A stretch of 20,521 nt of DNA from a virus. The position numbers were made by a program, and so were the translations under genes. Position 1 is the first letter of the stretch. Each line of letters opens with the position of its first letter. Positions 10,735-16,479 of the stretch are shown here, piece after piece. The stretch lies in the IMG/VR virus record IMGVR_UViG_3300033149_006503, positions 1 through 20,521 of that record; one strand, 5' to 3'. The notes under the pieces are model-generated. The model ran no database searches. It was not told the DNA's origin and saw only the letters and a program-made list of their open reading frames with translations.

Positions 10735-11181
10735 ATGGCCACTGAACGAAAACCGGGCCGCGAGGCAAAGCTCTACCGCAATACCACAACGTGGGATTCG
10801 CCGACGTGGAGCGAGATCACCTGCGTCAAGGACGTAACCTTCAATGCCCCCGACGGTGAGATCGCCGCGCCCAGCCGAGCCAGCGTCTTTCAGCTGACGC
10901 TCCTCAGTCTGACCGACGCCTCGATCAATTTGGAACTGGTGCATGCGCCCTCGGATGACAACTTCAGCGCGCTCCGCAGCGCGAAGACGGGACGAACGTC
11001 CGTTGAGCTCGCGATCATGGACGGGGATATCGAGACCGTCGGCAGCCACGGCCTGCGTGCCAATTTCGTCGTCACCGAGTTCGCACGGAACGAACCCGTC
11101 GAAGATGAGCTGACTTATACCGTTACCCTCAAGCCGACGCCTTCGGACAACGCCCCCGAGTGGTACACCGTGTCGAGCTGA
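10735..11181 (+). CDS. Major tail tube protein
   Basis: This 148-residue tail tube subunit stacks as hexameric rings around the tape measure. The N-terminal GREAKLYRNTTTWDSPTWSE, the middle VELAIMDGDIETVGSHGLRA and the end FARNEPVEDELTYTVTLKPT match, from memory, a phage tail-tube group common in environmental phages and prophages. It has a strong ribosome binding site (AAGAGGAGG, 10718-10726), as expected for an abundant virion protein. It follows the neck gene and comes before the enzyme cassette, whose first gene starts two bases beyond its stop. The tail chaperone gene that would normally come next is displaced by about 4.5 kb. Confidence 0.82.
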   Translation: MATERKPGREAKLYRNTTTWDSPTWSEITCVKDVTFNAPDGEIAAPSRASVFQLTLLSLTDASINLELVHAPSDDNFSALRSAKTGRTSVELAIMDGDIETVGSHGLRANFVVTEFARNEPVEDELTYTVTLKPTPSDNAPEWYTVSS

Positions 11182-11183
11182 GT

Positions 11184-11867
11184 ATGATGGTCGACAGCAA
11201 AATCGCCCTCGAATTCGTCGGCACCGAGTGTCTCCGGCCCGAGGTCTGCGAGCGCTCGTGGGAATCGTTTCACTCGCGGCTCAAGGGTGTGGATTGGCCG
11301 GAGACAACGCTCTTTCTCAACATCGACCCGGTGCCTCCGAATCGCAGGGCTGAGGCGGGCAGGTTGATAAAGGCTGCGCGACGTTTCTTCGGCCGAGTCG
11401 AGGTAAATCAACCCGACCAGCCGAACTTCGCGCGGGCGGTGAAGTGGGGCTGGGCACAGCCGCAGCGGGCCGCTTTCTTCTATCTCCAGGCGGATTGGAT
11501 CCTGCAAATCGACGTTGACGTTCCATCTCTCATGCCCTTTCTCGAAAACTGGGATGCCGTCAATCTGAGGGCATATCGCAGCGACTGGGGCCCAAAGCAT
11601 TTATGTCTCTCGCCCGTGCTGATCAGGACCGATGTTGCGCGCCAACTCGCAGGCCGCCTCACCGACGAGGCGGGCCCCGAAGCACAGCTCAGGGCCCCAT
11701 ATGTGCGCGAGGGAGGCCGCTCCCTGGGCCTTGATATTTGGTCGCTGCATTGGCCAACCGACCGCGACAGGTGCATCATCGAGGATATCGGCAGGCCCTG
11801 GATGACCGCACATGGTCTGAAGAAGAAGGGCGGCAAGTCCTTCGTGACCTGGGAGTTTTCGGGATGA
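11184..11867 (+). CDS. Glycosyltransferase-like protein (GT-A-like fold)
   Basis: This 227-residue protein looks like a compact GT-A-type transferase: an N-terminal nucleotide-binding-like region (TTLFLNIDPVP), then FFYLQADWILQIDVDV at about residues 98-112. Similar phage and bacterial proteins carry LEDDW there. Here the motif reads QADW, so only one of the usual two acidic residues before the Trp remains, and metal-dependent activity is uncertain. No signal peptide or membrane span. ATG 11184 (or 11187) is two bases after the tail tube stop, so translation is coupled. The end overlaps the next gene by ATGA. Likely function: sugar transfer in the modification cassette; donor and acceptor unknown. 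Confidence 0.62.
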   Translation: MMVDSKIALEFVGTECLRPEVCERSWESFHSRLKGVDWPETTLFLNIDPVPPNRRAEAGRLIKAARRFFGRVEVNQPDQPNFARAVKWGWAQPQRAAFFYLQADWILQIDVDVPSLMPFLENWDAVNLRAYRSDWGPKHLCLSPVLIRTDVARQLAGRLTDEAGPEAQLRAPYVREGGRSLGLDIWSLHWPTDRDRCIIEDIGRPWMTAHGLKKKGGKSFVTWEFSG

Positions 11868-12865
11868 TTCGATGCATACAATTCGGGGTGAGGGCATTCC
11901 GAAATTATGCGAGCGACACGGCCTACCTCATTCAGCGGGGGCTCGAGCTCCAGGGCTTCACGGTCTTCGGTCGAGGCTTTCCGGGGCGGCGCGACTGCAC
12001 CGACATGCGCGTGGTCTGCGAACGCGAGAAACCGGACGTCGTCTTCTGCGAGGAGTGGAACACCTGGAACCCCGACATGCCGCAGCCGCCGGCCAAGGAC
12101 GTCGGATTCACGAACTATGATTGGCTCGGCCGGCAGCCGCACATCTTCCGTGCCACGAAACACGCCGATCCGTGGGGCCATCCGGAAAAGCACGCCGAGT
12201 GGCATCGGCGGTTCAACCCGGACGTCATCCTGGTCCGATACGAGGTGCCGCGTGTGCTCCAGATTGCGCCCTACCTCGACGAAAAGCGCCTGCTGCGAAT
12301 CCATCACAGCGTGACGCGCGAATACTGCCCGGAGATCACGTCGGCGAGCCGCGACCGCGTGTGTCTCCTGTCGGGCGCTGTGAACCCGCGCATCTACCCG
12401 ATGCGTGCCCGTCTCTGGCGGGAGGTGCGGGAACTGCCCCGCTGGGAGGATGTCTTCAGCATCCGACCCCATCACCGGTGGTCGCGCACCGGAGGTTCGG
12501 CAGTGCCCGCTTACATGCGCGACCTGGCCCGGCACAAGGTGATGTTCGTCGGGACCTCGCGCTGGCACGTCGCTTTCAAGAAGCACTACGAGGGGACTGC
12601 TGCGGGCTGCATCGTGGTGACGAACCTTCCCACGTCCGATCGGGTGCCGATCATCGATGAGAACCTGGTCCGGGTGCCGGATACGATTTCGGCCGCCGAA
12701 CTCCGCGACCTCTGCCTCGGGCTCGCCGATGCCTGGGACGAGGAGCGCCAGCGCGAGCTGGCCCGGCGCACCATCGGGCGTTACGACTATCGGCAGGAGG
12801 CCTGGCGCATCCGCCGCGGCCTCCTGAAACGTGCGGGACTCAGCGAGGGGAGTGCGGTTCCATGA
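11864..12865 (+). CDS. GT-B-like glycosyltransferase (CgeB/YkvP-like)
   Basis: This 333-residue soluble protein has a two-domain outline. The N-terminal half shows FGVRAFRNYASDTAYLIQRG and DVVFCEEWNTWNPD. The C-terminal half has the donor-site region at about residues 225-256, KVMFVGTSRWHVAFKKHYEG followed by TAAGCIVVTNLP, then IIDENLVRV. The E-G-x-A-x-G-C-ivvT series recalls family-1-like and CgeB-type glycosyltransferases, in which a conserved Glu and the small-residue run bind the nucleotide sugar. ATG 11864 was chosen because it overlaps the previous stop by ATGA; an upstream in-frame start at 11738 would run through that gene. It overlaps the radical SAM gene by ATGA. Confidence 0.68.
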   Translation: MIRCIQFGVRAFRNYASDTAYLIQRGLELQGFTVFGRGFPGRRDCTDMRVVCEREKPDVVFCEEWNTWNPDMPQPPAKDVGFTNYDWLGRQPHIFRATKHADPWGHPEKHAEWHRRFNPDVILVRYEVPRVLQIAPYLDEKRLLRIHHSVTREYCPEITSASRDRVCLLSGAVNPRIYPMRARLWREVRELPRWEDVFSIRPHHRWSRTGGSAVPAYMRDLARHKVMFVGTSRWHVAFKKHYEGTAAGCIVVTNLPTSDRVPIIDENLVRVPDTISAAELRDLCLGLADAWDEERQRELARRTIGRYDYRQEAWRIRRGLLKRAGLSEGSAVP

Positions 12866-13719
12866 AAGCCGTGACGCAGCAGTGGGTCATCCAGATCGAC
12901 GTGACGAATGCATGCCGACTGCGGTGCTCCAACTGCACCCGCCTCTGCGCACACGCGCGGAAGCCGTTCTTCATGCCCCCGGTCCAGTTCCGCAAGGCGG
13001 TCGAATCGGTCCGGACCTTTCCGAGCGACAGCGCGCCTGACCTCGAAGGGCGGCGCAAGGTCATCGGGATGATCGGCGGCGAGCCGACGCTGCACCCCCA
13101 GTTTCCCGAACTCTGCCGCATCATGGCCGAGGTCCTGCCCGACCGCCGGACGCGCGGGCTCTGGTCGTCGCTGGGCCCACGGTATGAGGAACATCGGGAG
13201 CTGATCGAGACGACTTTCGGGTATCAGAACAAGCACCCACACCTCCGGCCCGCCCGGCATCAGCCCGTGCTTGTCGCTTCGGTCGAGGCCGTCCCTGACG
13301 AGCGGCGTCGGCTGGATTACGTCTGGAAGTGCTGGCTTCAGAGGTCGTGGGGCGCGTCAATCACGCCGAAAGGCGTCTTCTTCTGTGAGGTTGCGGGGGC
13401 GCTCGATATGATCTTCGAGGGTCCCGGCGGGCTGCCCGTCGAGCCGATGTGGTGGAATCGCAGCCTCCTCGACTTCCATGACCAGGCGAAGAGGTGGTGT
13501 CGCCAGTGCGGCATCTGCATACCGATGCCGGGCAGATTCGACTGCGACGAAATCGATGACGTGAGCCGGGGCAACTTCGAGGCCCTGCGGGCGCTTGAGA
13601 GTCCAGGACTGAAACGATGCAAAATCTTCGACTGCACCGGTTTCGACCCGGCGGTTCACGAGGCCGCCTGGTCGCCGCGTCGATACCGACATCTCGATGA
13701 AGGCGAGGTTATGAAGTGA
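12862..13719 (+). CDS. Radical SAM protein with SPASM-like auxiliary cysteines
   Basis: This 285-residue enzyme has the radical SAM iron-sulfur motif C18-x3-C22-x2-C25 in IDVTNACRLRCSNCTRLCAH, and the SAM-binding GGEP motif at 72-75 (MIGGEPTLHPQF). Its C-terminal half has C157-x13-G-x3-C175 and CRQCGIC (C213, C216, C219) plus C228, C253 and C258. This resembles the SPASM/twitch layout that holds one or two auxiliary clusters in peptide- and sugar-modifying radical SAM enzymes. Its reaction cannot be read from sequence: peptide side-chain chemistry and sugar epimerisation or dehydration are both possible. It overlaps both neighbours by four bases (ATGA, GTGA) and sits between glycosyltransferase and methyltransferase genes. 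Confidence 0.88.
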   Translation: MKAVTQQWVIQIDVTNACRLRCSNCTRLCAHARKPFFMPPVQFRKAVESVRTFPSDSAPDLEGRRKVIGMIGGEPTLHPQFPELCRIMAEVLPDRRTRGLWSSLGPRYEEHRELIETTFGYQNKHPHLRPARHQPVLVASVEAVPDERRRLDYVWKCWLQRSWGASITPKGVFFCEVAGALDMIFEGPGGLPVEPMWWNRSLLDFHDQAKRWCRQCGICIPMPGRFDCDEIDDVSRGNFEALRALESPGLKRCKIFDCTGFDPAVHEAAWSPRRYRHLDEGEVMK

Positions 13720-14348
13720 GGCGGTTGGATTTCGAGACGTTCGTGAAGGATATCAGCGTGGATGCCGTCCGCGGCCGACGCGGTATCGCCAGCCCCACGT
13801 GGAACGATCTTCGGGTGCTGCTGAGGCTCCTGGGGATGTGGAAGCCGAAACGGTGTCTCGAAATCGGAGTCGCTCAGGGTCATACGGCCTCGCTGCTGCT
13901 GGACCATGGGCCCTTCATCGAAGGCTACGTCGGCGTGGACCGGAGAGAGGCCAACGCACCATCCGATGCGGGGAGGCTCATCAAGGACGACGCGCGGGTG
14001 ATGCTGGTAGTCCGGGGCAAGGGCACGCGAACCATCCCGTCTGACGAAATTCCAGACGCACCATTTGATTGGATTTTCATCGACAGCGATCATTCTTACA
14101 ACGGCGTGAAGTTCGACACGGCCTACGTTCAACCGCTCCTGGCGAAGGGCGGAGTGCTCATCTGGCACGATTTCGGCGTGCCGAGTCAGTTCCGCCCCGG
14201 CGGCGCTCGCTTTGGCGTCTACCGGGCGCTGAGCGAGATAAGTGTCGGCCCACCGATCTTTTGCTTCGCCGATGCGCTGCACACGAGCAGCATCGCTTTC
14301 CGGTCGGAGGCGTACGAACGGCATGGAGTGCTTGATTACGTCCGTTAA
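13716..14348 (+). CDS. Class I SAM-dependent methyltransferase (Methyltransf_24-like)
   Basis: This 210-residue protein has a Rossmann methyltransferase core. Motif I is CLEIGVAQGHTASLLL at about residues 47-62. The acidic strand segment FDWIFIDSDHSYNGV at about 117-131 is typical of the Methyltransf_24 / cephalosporin-hydroxylase-like group, and GGVLIWHDFG follows at about 145-154. Such enzymes often methylate sugars or small metabolites in glycan clusters, so O-methylation of the cassette's product is a reasonable inference. GTG 13716 overlaps the radical SAM stop by GTGA. The 3' end overlaps the next gene by 26 bases. Confidence 0.85.
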   Translation: MRRLDFETFVKDISVDAVRGRRGIASPTWNDLRVLLRLLGMWKPKRCLEIGVAQGHTASLLLDHGPFIEGYVGVDRREANAPSDAGRLIKDDARVMLVVRGKGTRTIPSDEIPDAPFDWIFIDSDHSYNGVKFDTAYVQPLLAKGGVLIWHDFGVPSQFRPGGARFGVYRALSEISVGPPIFCFADALHTSSIAFRSEAYERHGVLDYVR

Positions 14349-15075
14349 CTACGACGATCTGCTCGCGATCACGCTGCCGACTGTAATGCGTGAGATAGGG
14401 GGGGCTGTCATCATCACGACTCGGGAAGACAGCGCCACGGTCGACGTCGCGCGCCGTCACGGCGCACGCGTCTACCGTACACGGGCGTTTCACCGGAACG
14501 GCGCCGCCTTCAACAAGGCCGCTGCGCTCAATGAGCTGGTGAGCGATGAGAGGGAGTGGGATTATCCAGACGTAGACTTGGATGGCTGGGTGATGACGCT
14601 CGATGCTGATATCTATCTGCCCGAAGGGTTCGGTGGGGTGATGCAACGTGAGTTGGAGCGCGGGTGTCTCCATGGCGCACATCGGCTGATGTGTCCCGAT
14701 CTCGCGACCTGGAGGGCAGGCGGCCCTTTTCCGCCGATTCCGTCGCCGCCCCAACTGCCCGGGTTCCTGCATGTCTTCTGGGCACCTCCCGTCGAGGAAC
14801 CATGGTATGACGATTCGTTCGAGCATGCCGGCGCGTACGATACGGCATTTCAGAACCGCTGGCCAAAGGAGCGCAGGCGGCGGTTCAGCATGCCGGTGAT
14901 TCATCTGGGGCGTTTGGGTCAAAACTGGTTCGGCCGACGCACCGCCCGGTGGAGCGGTGAATCCACCGGGGGGCCGGACGCCGAGGCCGTCGAACGCGTC
15001 TGGCGGCAGCACCAGGCCCTGAAAGCCGCTGGCGTTCCCGGCCGAGAGCGCCGGCGGGCGCAGCTGCTCAAGTGA
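14323..15075 (+). CDS. Glycosyltransferase (GT-A fold, DXD motif)
   Basis: This 250-residue GT-A-type transferase has an N-terminal strand (CLITSVNYDDLLAITLP), an N-rich donor loop (RNGAAFNKAAALNELV, about 58-73), and the metal-binding DXD in WVMTLDADIYLP (D94-A-D96). The C-terminus has RFSMPVIHLGRLGQNWFGR, a segment I associate with this type of phage transferase. Unlike the first transferase of the cassette, its metal motif is intact. ATG 14323 lies inside the end of the methyltransferase gene (26-base overlap), with GGAGG at 14306-14310. The longer frame from 14242 would extend further into that gene. The C-terminal tail is Arg-rich. Confidence 0.8.
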   Translation: MECLITSVNYDDLLAITLPTVMREIGGAVIITTREDSATVDVARRHGARVYRTRAFHRNGAAFNKAAALNELVSDEREWDYPDVDLDGWVMTLDADIYLPEGFGGVMQRELERGCLHGAHRLMCPDLATWRAGGPFPPIPSPPQLPGFLHVFWAPPVEEPWYDDSFEHAGAYDTAFQNRWPKERRRRFSMPVIHLGRLGQNWFGRRTARWSGESTGGPDAEAVERVWRQHQALKAAGVPGRERRRAQLLK

Positions 15076-15092
15076 ACGACGGAAGGAGCACC

Positions 15093-15740
15093 ATGAAGCT
15101 CGCTGATCTCATGGATGCGCACAGCGGCACGCGTATATGGATATTCGGCACCGGCCCGTCGCTTGATCTGGTGAATTACGACGACGTCACCGGCCCGCGC
15201 ATCCTGCTTCACCGCGCCGCGTTTCTCAATGAGCTGATCGCGCCCGGGCAGACCTACTGGCTGGTGCTTGACGACTGTTGGGGCATGAAGACCCCGGGCC
15301 CCTGGGATGAGATGCTCGCCCGCGTCCGCGACGGCTCCGCGGGCATCTTCCTGGTCTGCCGCGATCCGCTCGGGGCGATCAAGCGGCCGGTGCCGGCGCC
15401 CAGGGACGTACGTATCATCCGTTTCAACGGCCGTCGGCCGCAGAACGAAGAGGCGCTCACGTATACCAGGCAGGAGGTGGCCGACCGCAATGTCCTCTGG
15501 ACGTGGTCGGGCTCCGCAGGCCCCGCCGTGCACCTCGCGTGGTTCATGGGGGCGGCCGAGATCATGCTCGTCGGATGCGACGGCACCGACGGCCACGCCG
15601 AACGCCTTGCCCGCTATTATGAGACGGGAGCGCGCTCTCGAGGCGGGTTTGGATACCGGCCCGCCTATGACTGCATGATGAAGGCCATCCGGGCCGTGAA
15701 CATACCCTGTCGAACCCTTACCGAGGAGATCTGCGTATGA
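15093..15740 (+). CDS. DUF115/GT42-like protein (possible sialyltransferase-like)
   Basis: This 215-residue protein begins with IWIFGTGPSLD at about residues 15-25. It later carries AAEIMLVGCDGTDGHAERL at about 154-172. The G-x-GPSLD nucleotide-binding loop plus a late LVGxDG segment is the pattern of DUF115 proteins and of GT42 sialyltransferases, which use CMP-activated nonulosonic acids. This suggests transfer of a CMP-linked sugar, but no CMP-sugar synthesis gene lies in the window. ATG 15093 was chosen for AAGGAG at 15083-15088; GTG 15072 is possible. It ends in an ATGA overlap with the tail chaperone gene, so the cassette is coupled to the tail genes downstream. Confidence 0.65.
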   Translation: MKLADLMDAHSGTRIWIFGTGPSLDLVNYDDVTGPRILLHRAAFLNELIAPGQTYWLVLDDCWGMKTPGPWDEMLARVRDGSAGIFLVCRDPLGAIKRPVPAPRDVRIIRFNGRRPQNEEALTYTRQEVADRNVLWTWSGSAGPAVHLAWFMGAAEIMLVGCDGTDGHAERLARYYETGARSRGGFGYRPAYDCMMKAIRAVNIPCRTLTEEICV

Positions 15741-16198
15741 AGACCTTCAAAGATCGGGAAGGAATGAGTTGGGATGTCGACCTGAATGTCGCAGCCGTCA
15801 AGCGGGTTCGCGACCTGGCGGGCGTCGATCTTCTATCCGCGGCCCAAGAGGGGTTTGAGCGGTTGTTCAACGACCCCATCGCCATGGTGGACGCGATCTA
15901 CGCGATCTGCAAACCGCAGGCAGAGGAGCGCAAAATCAGCGACGAGGAGTTCGGCCGACGTATGGCCGGTGACAGCATCGATGATGCCTACACCGCGTTC
16001 TTGGAGGAATTTCCAAATTTTTTCCAGAACCCCCTGCGCCGCAAGCTCATGAGGCAGACGGTCGAGAAGGTGCAGGCGGTCGAGCGGCGGGCGCTGAAGA
16101 TGTCCGAGAAGATATTGGGCAGCGCGGCGCTCGAGGACAAGATCAACGAGGTCCTGGAGGAGGCGAGGCGGCGGGCGCTCGGGGAATCTGGAGGCTGA
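15737..16198 (+). CDS. Tail assembly chaperone (GpG-like)
   Basis: This 153-residue acidic helical protein is typical of the first tail assembly chaperone, which coats the tape measure protein before tube polymerisation and is not part of the virion. Its pattern is clear: FKDREGMSWDVDLNVAAVKR, then LFNDPIAMVDAIYAICKPQ, EEFGRRMAGDSIDDAYTAFL and EFPNFFQNPLRRK. It starts by ATGA overlap with the cassette's last gene. The gene directly before the tape measure normally makes a second, frameshifted product, and the -1 frame here does hold a matching T-like segment. Two possible slippery sites lie at 16015-16024. Confidence 0.85.
   Translation: MKTFKDREGMSWDVDLNVAAVKRVRDLAGVDLLSAAQEGFERLFNDPIAMVDAIYAICKPQAEERKISDEEFGRRMAGDSIDDAYTAFLEEFPNFFQNPLRRKLMRQTVEKVQAVERRALKMSEKILGSAALEDKINEVLEEARRRALGESGG
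16015..16024 (+). other. Candidate -1 slippery sequence in the tail chaperone gene
   Basis: In the chaperone frame this reads cca-aat-ttt-ttc. It contains both A-AAT-TTT and T-TTT-TTC, each fitting the X-XXY-YYZ rule for -1 slippage. The -1 frame is open from 15985 to the T-like stop at 16479. Against it, the site is about 170 bases before the chaperone stop, and the -1 translation up to 16180 looks like out-of-frame sequence. A site nearer the stop would fit known phages better, but none of canonical form is seen there. Confidence 0.35.
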
Positions 16199-16479
16199 TC
16201 TACGAACTCGCCGGCATCGTCGGGCTGAATCCGGATCCCTTCACGCTCAGAGAACTTGTATGGATGAGCGAGGGGCGGCGGCGCGATGCATTCGACCGCT
16301 CGGCGCCGATCACGGCAATCGTGGCCAACGTCTACCGAGATGCGAAAGCGCGTCCAAGTCCCTTTCGCTTGAGGGATTTTCATCCGCTGCTGCCTGAGAG
16401 CGACACCGAGAGCATCCTGCCGGGCACCCGCGTGCGGGCCGAGAACATCGAAGATCTTAAGGTCTTTCTGGACAGATGA
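16186..16479 (+). CDS. GpT-like tail assembly chaperone extension (probable -1 frameshift product)
   Basis: Read in the -1 frame relative to the chaperone, this stretch codes IWRLIYELAGIVGLNPDPFT, then LRELVWMSEGRRRDAFDRSA and further to a TGA at 16477-16479. That string is the pattern of the second tail chaperone segment seen in many siphophages. No ATG, GTG or TTG occurs in this frame between 15985 and 16264. Starting at ATG 16264 would remove the YELAGIVGLNPDPF core and leave a 71-residue product with a poor ribosome binding site. It is therefore probably joined to the chaperone by programmed frameshifting. The start given is where the conserved sequence begins, not a start codon. Confidence 0.7.
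   Translation: MWRLIYELAGIVGLNPDPFTLRELVWMSEGRRRDAFDRSAPITAIVANVYRDAKARPSPFRLRDFHPLLPESDTESILPGTRVRAENIEDLKVFLDR

Follow-up and report, generated by a model that had tools for sequence, protein, structure and literature searches.

The window analysed here is a 20,521-nucleotide virus fragment (IMG/VR record IMGVR_UViG_3300033149_006503, positions 1 to 20,521) holding terminase, portal, fused protease-capsid, decoration, neck, tube, chaperone and tape-measure genes, and between its tail tube and tail assembly chaperone genes lie six enzyme-like genes, c1 to c6 (11184-15740). By comparison with related loci, this cassette is an accessory insert in the window phage. Its core, made up of a radical S-adenosylmethionine (SAM) enzyme (c3), a methyltransferase (c4) and the glycosyltransferases c2 (probable) and c5, recurs in many unrelated phages, at differing sites among their particle genes, which suggests that it serves to place a chemically unusual sugar on the phage's own particles. 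We read the cassette, with slightly better than even confidence, as a glycan-assembly unit with a mobile core, which sits in the structural operon and would serve late virion glycosylation with radical-SAM tailoring.

Insertion, recurrence and position of the cassette

Searching with the capsid protein brought up 353 relatives; 80 of them were retained, and 39 loci (loci are given below by L numbers) combine capsid, tube and chaperone. Where tube and chaperone are not adjacent in these 39 loci, at most 654 bases separate them, negative spacings being over-extended starts of open reading frames (ORFs) or overlaps, whereas the distance in the window is 4,555 bases. This agrees with the earlier note on this DNA, which took the chaperone gene to follow the tube gene directly and the cassette to be an insertion. 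Because tube and chaperone of the relatives are near-adjacent and just one of the 80 capsid-seeded relatives (L057) carries module genes, the cassette was classed as accessory.

To follow its genes further, IMG/VR was searched with c3, c2 and alignments of both as seeds, and a member of the c2, c4 or c5 family within 9 kb was counted as a partner. Among 34 distinct c3 clusters, 25 revealed at least one partner, 19 at least two and 13 all three, although many of the records are truncated at the end of a contig. L136/L137 is a phage whose head genes are unrelated, yet c1-c2-c3-c4-c5 reappear there in the same order and on the same strand with identities of 50, 62, 60, 52 and 51%, respectively, this time between portal and minor head protein. 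The gene c6 is not part of that block; a PHROG-4603 (sialyltransferase) protein farther downstream aligns weakly to it (24% identity over 161 positions). Pairwise identities of c3, c2 and c5 correlate (r 0.83-0.87, permutation P 8e-4 to 5e-5), to which shared phage ancestry may contribute. The idea that all six genes travel together thus holds for c1 to c5 in L136/L137 and for the core in many records, but not for c6.

The position of the block is far from constant. Within the window's own lineage, it was found at the terminase/portal joint in L138 and L143, at the neck/tube joint in L044, a phage that has terminase (44%), portal, capsid, tube and chaperone in common with the window, and, in cut records, after the terminase in L148 and before the portal in L057 and L140. 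Besides the portal/minor head site of L136, other lineages carry it between connector and tube (L010, L034/L050), after the connector (L009, L017) or beside the portal (L151). A same-strand structural gene was recognised within 9 kb in 18 of the 34 c3 clusters; as the structural profiles covered two structural lineages, the remaining 16 are not to be counted as negatives. Wherever such genes were recognised beside the block, it lay among them and on their strand. In the c3 tree, the L044 protein falls in a different clade from those of the window and L057, so that the window lineage probably acquired the module repeatedly. A special home at the tube/chaperone joint finds no support, and since relatives carry the block at other joints, its location says nothing about the tube as a target of modification, which the earlier note had named as one possibility. 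Taken together, these comparisons strengthen the link of the module to the virion gene cluster, while its link to the tube/chaperone joint is not supported. As a separate observation, a further relative carries a group II intron reverse transcriptase/maturase gene between neck and tube (L090:7897-9837).

The radical SAM enzyme c3

The assignment of c3 to the radical SAM enzymes is solid, as evidenced by a Pfam match (1.9e-4) and a strong fold match. Alignment of 16 c3-family proteins revealed a CX3CX2C motif (C18/C22/C25) and four auxiliary cysteines (C157/C175/C213/C216), predicted to bind metal, that are invariant in all 16. The AlphaFold2 model (predicted local distance difference test, pLDDT, 81.7) matched SpeY (Foldseek 9.7e-9, Z 16.4, 246 residues, 3.5 A) and BtrN (Foldseek 2.7e-4, Z 12.0, 185 residues), the latter being top-ranked by sequence profiles as well (6.7e-5). 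PqqE was the next-best fold (Z 10.5), followed at lower Z by several maturases of ribosomally synthesised and post-translationally modified peptides (RiPPs), and a fold search of a viral library returned generic radical SAM proteins only. With 285 amino acids and a radical SAM core starting near residue 8, c3 leaves no room for a leader-binding RiPP recognition element (RRE) domain. Together with fold class and cysteine set, this points to sugar oxidation, and the model makes c3 a probable twitch radical-SAM sugar dehydrogenase.

Like BtrN and SpeY, c3 displays this fold over most of its chain, the CX3CX2C motif and four auxiliary cysteines, but identity to them is only 14-15%, and BtrN and SpeY serve antibiotic biosynthesis. 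The auxiliary cluster of BtrN is fully cysteine-ligated and is thought to take up an electron in a two-electron alcohol oxidation (PMC9012708, PMC6231123). An identity as viperin (pVip) was rejected, as the profile matched residues 9-89 only with 20 bits and viperin chains reached a Z of about 7.9.

Profile searches revealed cellular c3 relatives in Verrucomicrobiota and Desulfobacterota, so that a virus-only family was rejected; none was found by profile search in 396 genomes of the phylum of the Acidobacteriaceae metagenome-assembled genome, and two pattern scans of genome contigs matched no family member. Cellular and viral relatives adjoin glycosyltransferases, some also nonulosonic-acid genes, and this neighbourhood in the cellular relatives supports a glycan substrate for c3. 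Regarding other arrangements of the family, a lone member lies between the late tail-region genes g25 and g26 in L146 (10001-10888), which belongs to the window's own lineage, and L152, with module glycosyltransferases not recognised nearby, and in L138, L140, L143 and L144 the c3-family gene is accompanied by a further radical SAM gene (rSAM2) that is more distantly related.

Other cassette enzymes and gene layout

The methyltransferase c4 (PF13578, 3.6e-14) is likewise a solid assignment. Members of the c5 family share D94, D96 (DxD) and H194 in 11 of 11 sequences, and the L136 homologue matches Glycos_transf_2 (1.5e-4) and Glyco_tranf_2_3 (1e-4), both just below the cut-off. The c2 family comprises more than ten phage proteins, and relatives match PF13524 at 0.0087 to 9.1e-6 while window c2 itself gives no match; through these homologues, c2 is probably GT-B-like. 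For c6, weak matches to an MptE-like Pfam family (0.0067) and to PHROG 4603, alpha-2,3-sialyltransferase (0.38), give a weak resemblance to DUF115/GT42. No Pfam, PHROG or NCBIfam match was obtained for c1, whose 50% identical homologue is the first gene of the L136 block; it also shares 27.6% identity over 96% with part of a 453-aa ORF of the huge phage LR756508, the N-terminus of which is methyltransferase-like. That relative sits in a glycan cluster with fucosyltransferase, GDP-sugar, sialyltransferase-family and NeuB genes. The cluster as a whole (L053, LR756508.1 308229-326885) is a large one in a 484-kb uncultured phage, with GT25, fucosyltransferase, GDP-mannose dehydratase, sialyltransferase GT29 and NeuB. 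Thus, the enzyme identities proposed in the earlier note stand for c3 and c4, are carried by homologues and the DxD motif for c5, and are weaker for c1, c2 and c6.

Gene order, strand and every joint agree with what had been described before (Table 1). The tight joints are weak evidence alone, since the structural genes of the window are mostly packed likewise (joints range from -4 to 63 bases, apart from three longer gaps, 181, 296 and 404). A window scan found no sigma-70-like promoter and terminator-like sites at chance level only. The joints indicate co-expression with the structural genes but are nothing special. Codon usage of the cassette does not differ from that of the structural genes (p 0.25) and therefore gives no sign of recent acquisition. 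AT skew is about zero across the cassette (11000-15500) and mostly positive over the structural genes. Downstream of it, the -1 frame stays open from 15985 past the 3' end of the chaperone gene and into 16264-16479, with a GGGGAAT run close to the chaperone stop, and the chaperone pair is probably made by programmed frameshift.

Table 1. Cassette genes and their neighbours in the window.
Feature	Position	Strand	Remarks
Tail tube protein (left neighbour)	10735..11181	+	PHROG 1407 major tail protein, 1.5e-4; L044 homologue 36%, also preceding chaperone
c1, probable GT-A-type glycosyltransferase	11184..11867	+	2-base gap after tube
c2, probable GT-B glycosyltransferase (CgeB/Glyco_trans_1_2-like)	11864..12865	+	4-base overlap with c1
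c3, twitch-type radical SAM enzyme, probable sugar dehydrogenase	12862..13719	+	4-base overlap with c2
c4, class I SAM methyltransferase (Methyltransf_24)	13716..14348	+	GTG start; 4-base overlap with c3
c5, GT-A-type glycosyltransferase	14323..15075	+	26-base overlap with c4
c6, DUF115/GT42-like protein, window-specific	15093..15740	+	17-base gap after c5
Tail assembly chaperone (right neighbour)	15737..16198	+	4-base overlap with c6; homologues directly after tube in about 40 related loci
Second chaperone frame	16264..16479	+	weak Phage_tail_T match, 0.13; homologues in relatives

Proposed role and alternative explanations

The data show which genes are present, that they travel together and sit among structural genes, and which cysteines and predicted fold class c3 has; acceptor, sugar, oxidation and methylation site are inferred, as follows. 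Lying in the virion structural operon, the cassette would have its enzymes made alongside head and tail proteins. The glycosyltransferases c1, c2, c5 and perhaps c6 would move sugars, most likely from host nucleotide sugars, onto an acceptor present late in infection, in all probability a virion protein; c3 would then oxidise a sugar hydroxyl in the manner of BtrN and SpeY, and c4 would cap a hydroxyl by methylation. We put forward only tentatively, as possible but rather doubtful, the broader proposal that diverse uncultured phages use a transferable late module whose radical SAM dehydrogenase tailors a virion glycan, yielding a keto or otherwise oxidised, methylated sugar new to viruses.

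Several points weigh against virion glycosylation. The module's radical SAM gene was recognised alone nearby in L146, L150 and L003, and in L007 (9917-11455) a single 512-aa protein is a fusion of a c3-type radical SAM enzyme with a methyltransferase domain. Three of the six cassette proteins (c1, c2 and c6) revealed no significant family match of their own, and the AlphaFold2 model of c1 (pLDDT 38) is unusable. The glycosyltransferases of the Corndogvirus cassette, compared below, are not clear homologues, giving no match to c1, c2 or c6. A search for a target by way of Ser/Thr-rich tails found no extra ones on the tube, decoration or capsid proteins of phages that carry the cassette.

The main rival, which we consider unlikely, is a late change of the host surface glycan, serving for example to keep phages from binding to debris or to exclude superinfection. 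Some of the glycosyltransferase-flanked c3 relatives of Verrucomicrobiota and Desulfobacterota have nonulosonic-acid or CDP-glycerol transferase genes beside them, which are typical of surface polysaccharides, and pelagiphage glycosyltransferases are usually interpreted as host-surface modifiers (PMC7029224). However, neither a membrane gene nor the features of gtr-type serotype conversion, flippase and polyprenol-phosphate glycosyltransferase, were recognised in c1 to c6 by Pfam/NCBIfam, the record being a fragment, and the cassette lies repeatedly inside the structural operon, not in a lysis or lysogeny region. Improbable, in our view, is also that the cassette is selfish or neutral cargo, an accessory block at permissive joints of the structural operon with no role tied to the virion. 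Its patchy distribution, many different joints and variable content would fit such cargo, as would the fact that the same joints host other inserts, such as the group II intron of L090, but intact reading frames, catalytic residues invariant over deep divergence and the correlated divergence of partner genes argue for selection for a joint function.

DNA hypermodification, in which the cassette would glycosylate and tailor phage DNA bases, is very improbable. Phage glycosyltransferases are well known for DNA modification, and the GT2 of the L010 cassette weakly matches a TET-associated glycosyltransferase family (0.00068, under the cut-off), but late structural placement speaks against it; in 13 records, which may be fragments, no thymidylate-synthase-type base hydroxymethylase was found while the positive control was detected, and no TET/JBP either, the positive control for these having gone undetected as well. 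Equally improbable is a RiPP-like pathway with c3 acting on a short peptide or on the backbone of a structural protein: peptide maturases do exist among SPASM/twitch radical SAM enzymes, several of them in the c3 fold list, but the missing space for an RRE domain, the clear margin by which small-molecule dehydrogenases are closest in fold, and the lack of any recognised precursor peptide gene all tell against it. Hence, where the earlier note had left room for either a glycan or a modified peptide on virion proteins, the glycan is favoured and the peptide appears less likely.

Novelty and comparison with known systems

Virion glycosylation by such a module would be of interest beyond the window. 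Among 50,697 sequenced phages, c2, c5, c6 and two further family members gave no match and c3 one weak generic radical SAM match, and LR756508 was the one relative of c1 among named phages. As these family queries found no clear match, culture-based work appears to have missed the module. Glycosylated phage virions have been demonstrated mainly in mycobacteriophages; that this module, which includes a radical SAM step, turns up close to structural genes in phages not related to each other suggests a wider spread and a richer chemistry of virion glycosylation than is known so far. Its genes offer handles for the role of virion sugars in adsorption, stability or avoidance of surface traps, and the c3 family adds a new radical SAM group with a narrow predicted reaction.

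Clusters of nonulosonic-acid type, one bacterial (L170) and one from a phage (L051), combine a c3-family enzyme with glycosyltransferases, NeuB, Epimerase_2 and a cytidylyltransferase or aminotransferase, whereas the window cassette has no precursor-synthesis genes. The phage record itself (L051:11422-17652) displays NeuB, UDP-GlcNAc 2-epimerase, cytidylyltransferase and two radical SAM genes, possibly a phage-encoded nonulosonic acid pathway.

The closest parallel is the methyltransferase/glycosyltransferase cassette of Corndogvirus (mycobacteriophage cluster O, e.g., Firecracker gp33-gp36), which is reported to modify capsid and tail tube (PMC11600133). Its gene order is portal, O-methyltransferase, hypothetical protein, two glycosyltransferases and protease, with short overlaps, and the window likewise has a methyltransferase and tandem glycosyltransferases (c1 and c2 by presumed identity) within the structural operon. 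The methyltransferase c4 belongs to the same Pfam family as the gp33 O-methyltransferase, which the c4 family profile matches at 9e-7, and c5 shows a weak local match to gp35 (0.001 overall, domain 0.005). In contrast to the window, the Corndogvirus cassette has no radical SAM enzyme and stands at portal/protease rather than tube/chaperone. The literature searched gave no description of a recurrent, position-mobile module built around a twitch radical SAM enzyme. Virion-modifying glycosyltransferase/methyltransferase cassettes inside structural operons are already known; a mobile one with a twitch radical SAM enzyme is, as far as that literature goes, apparently new.

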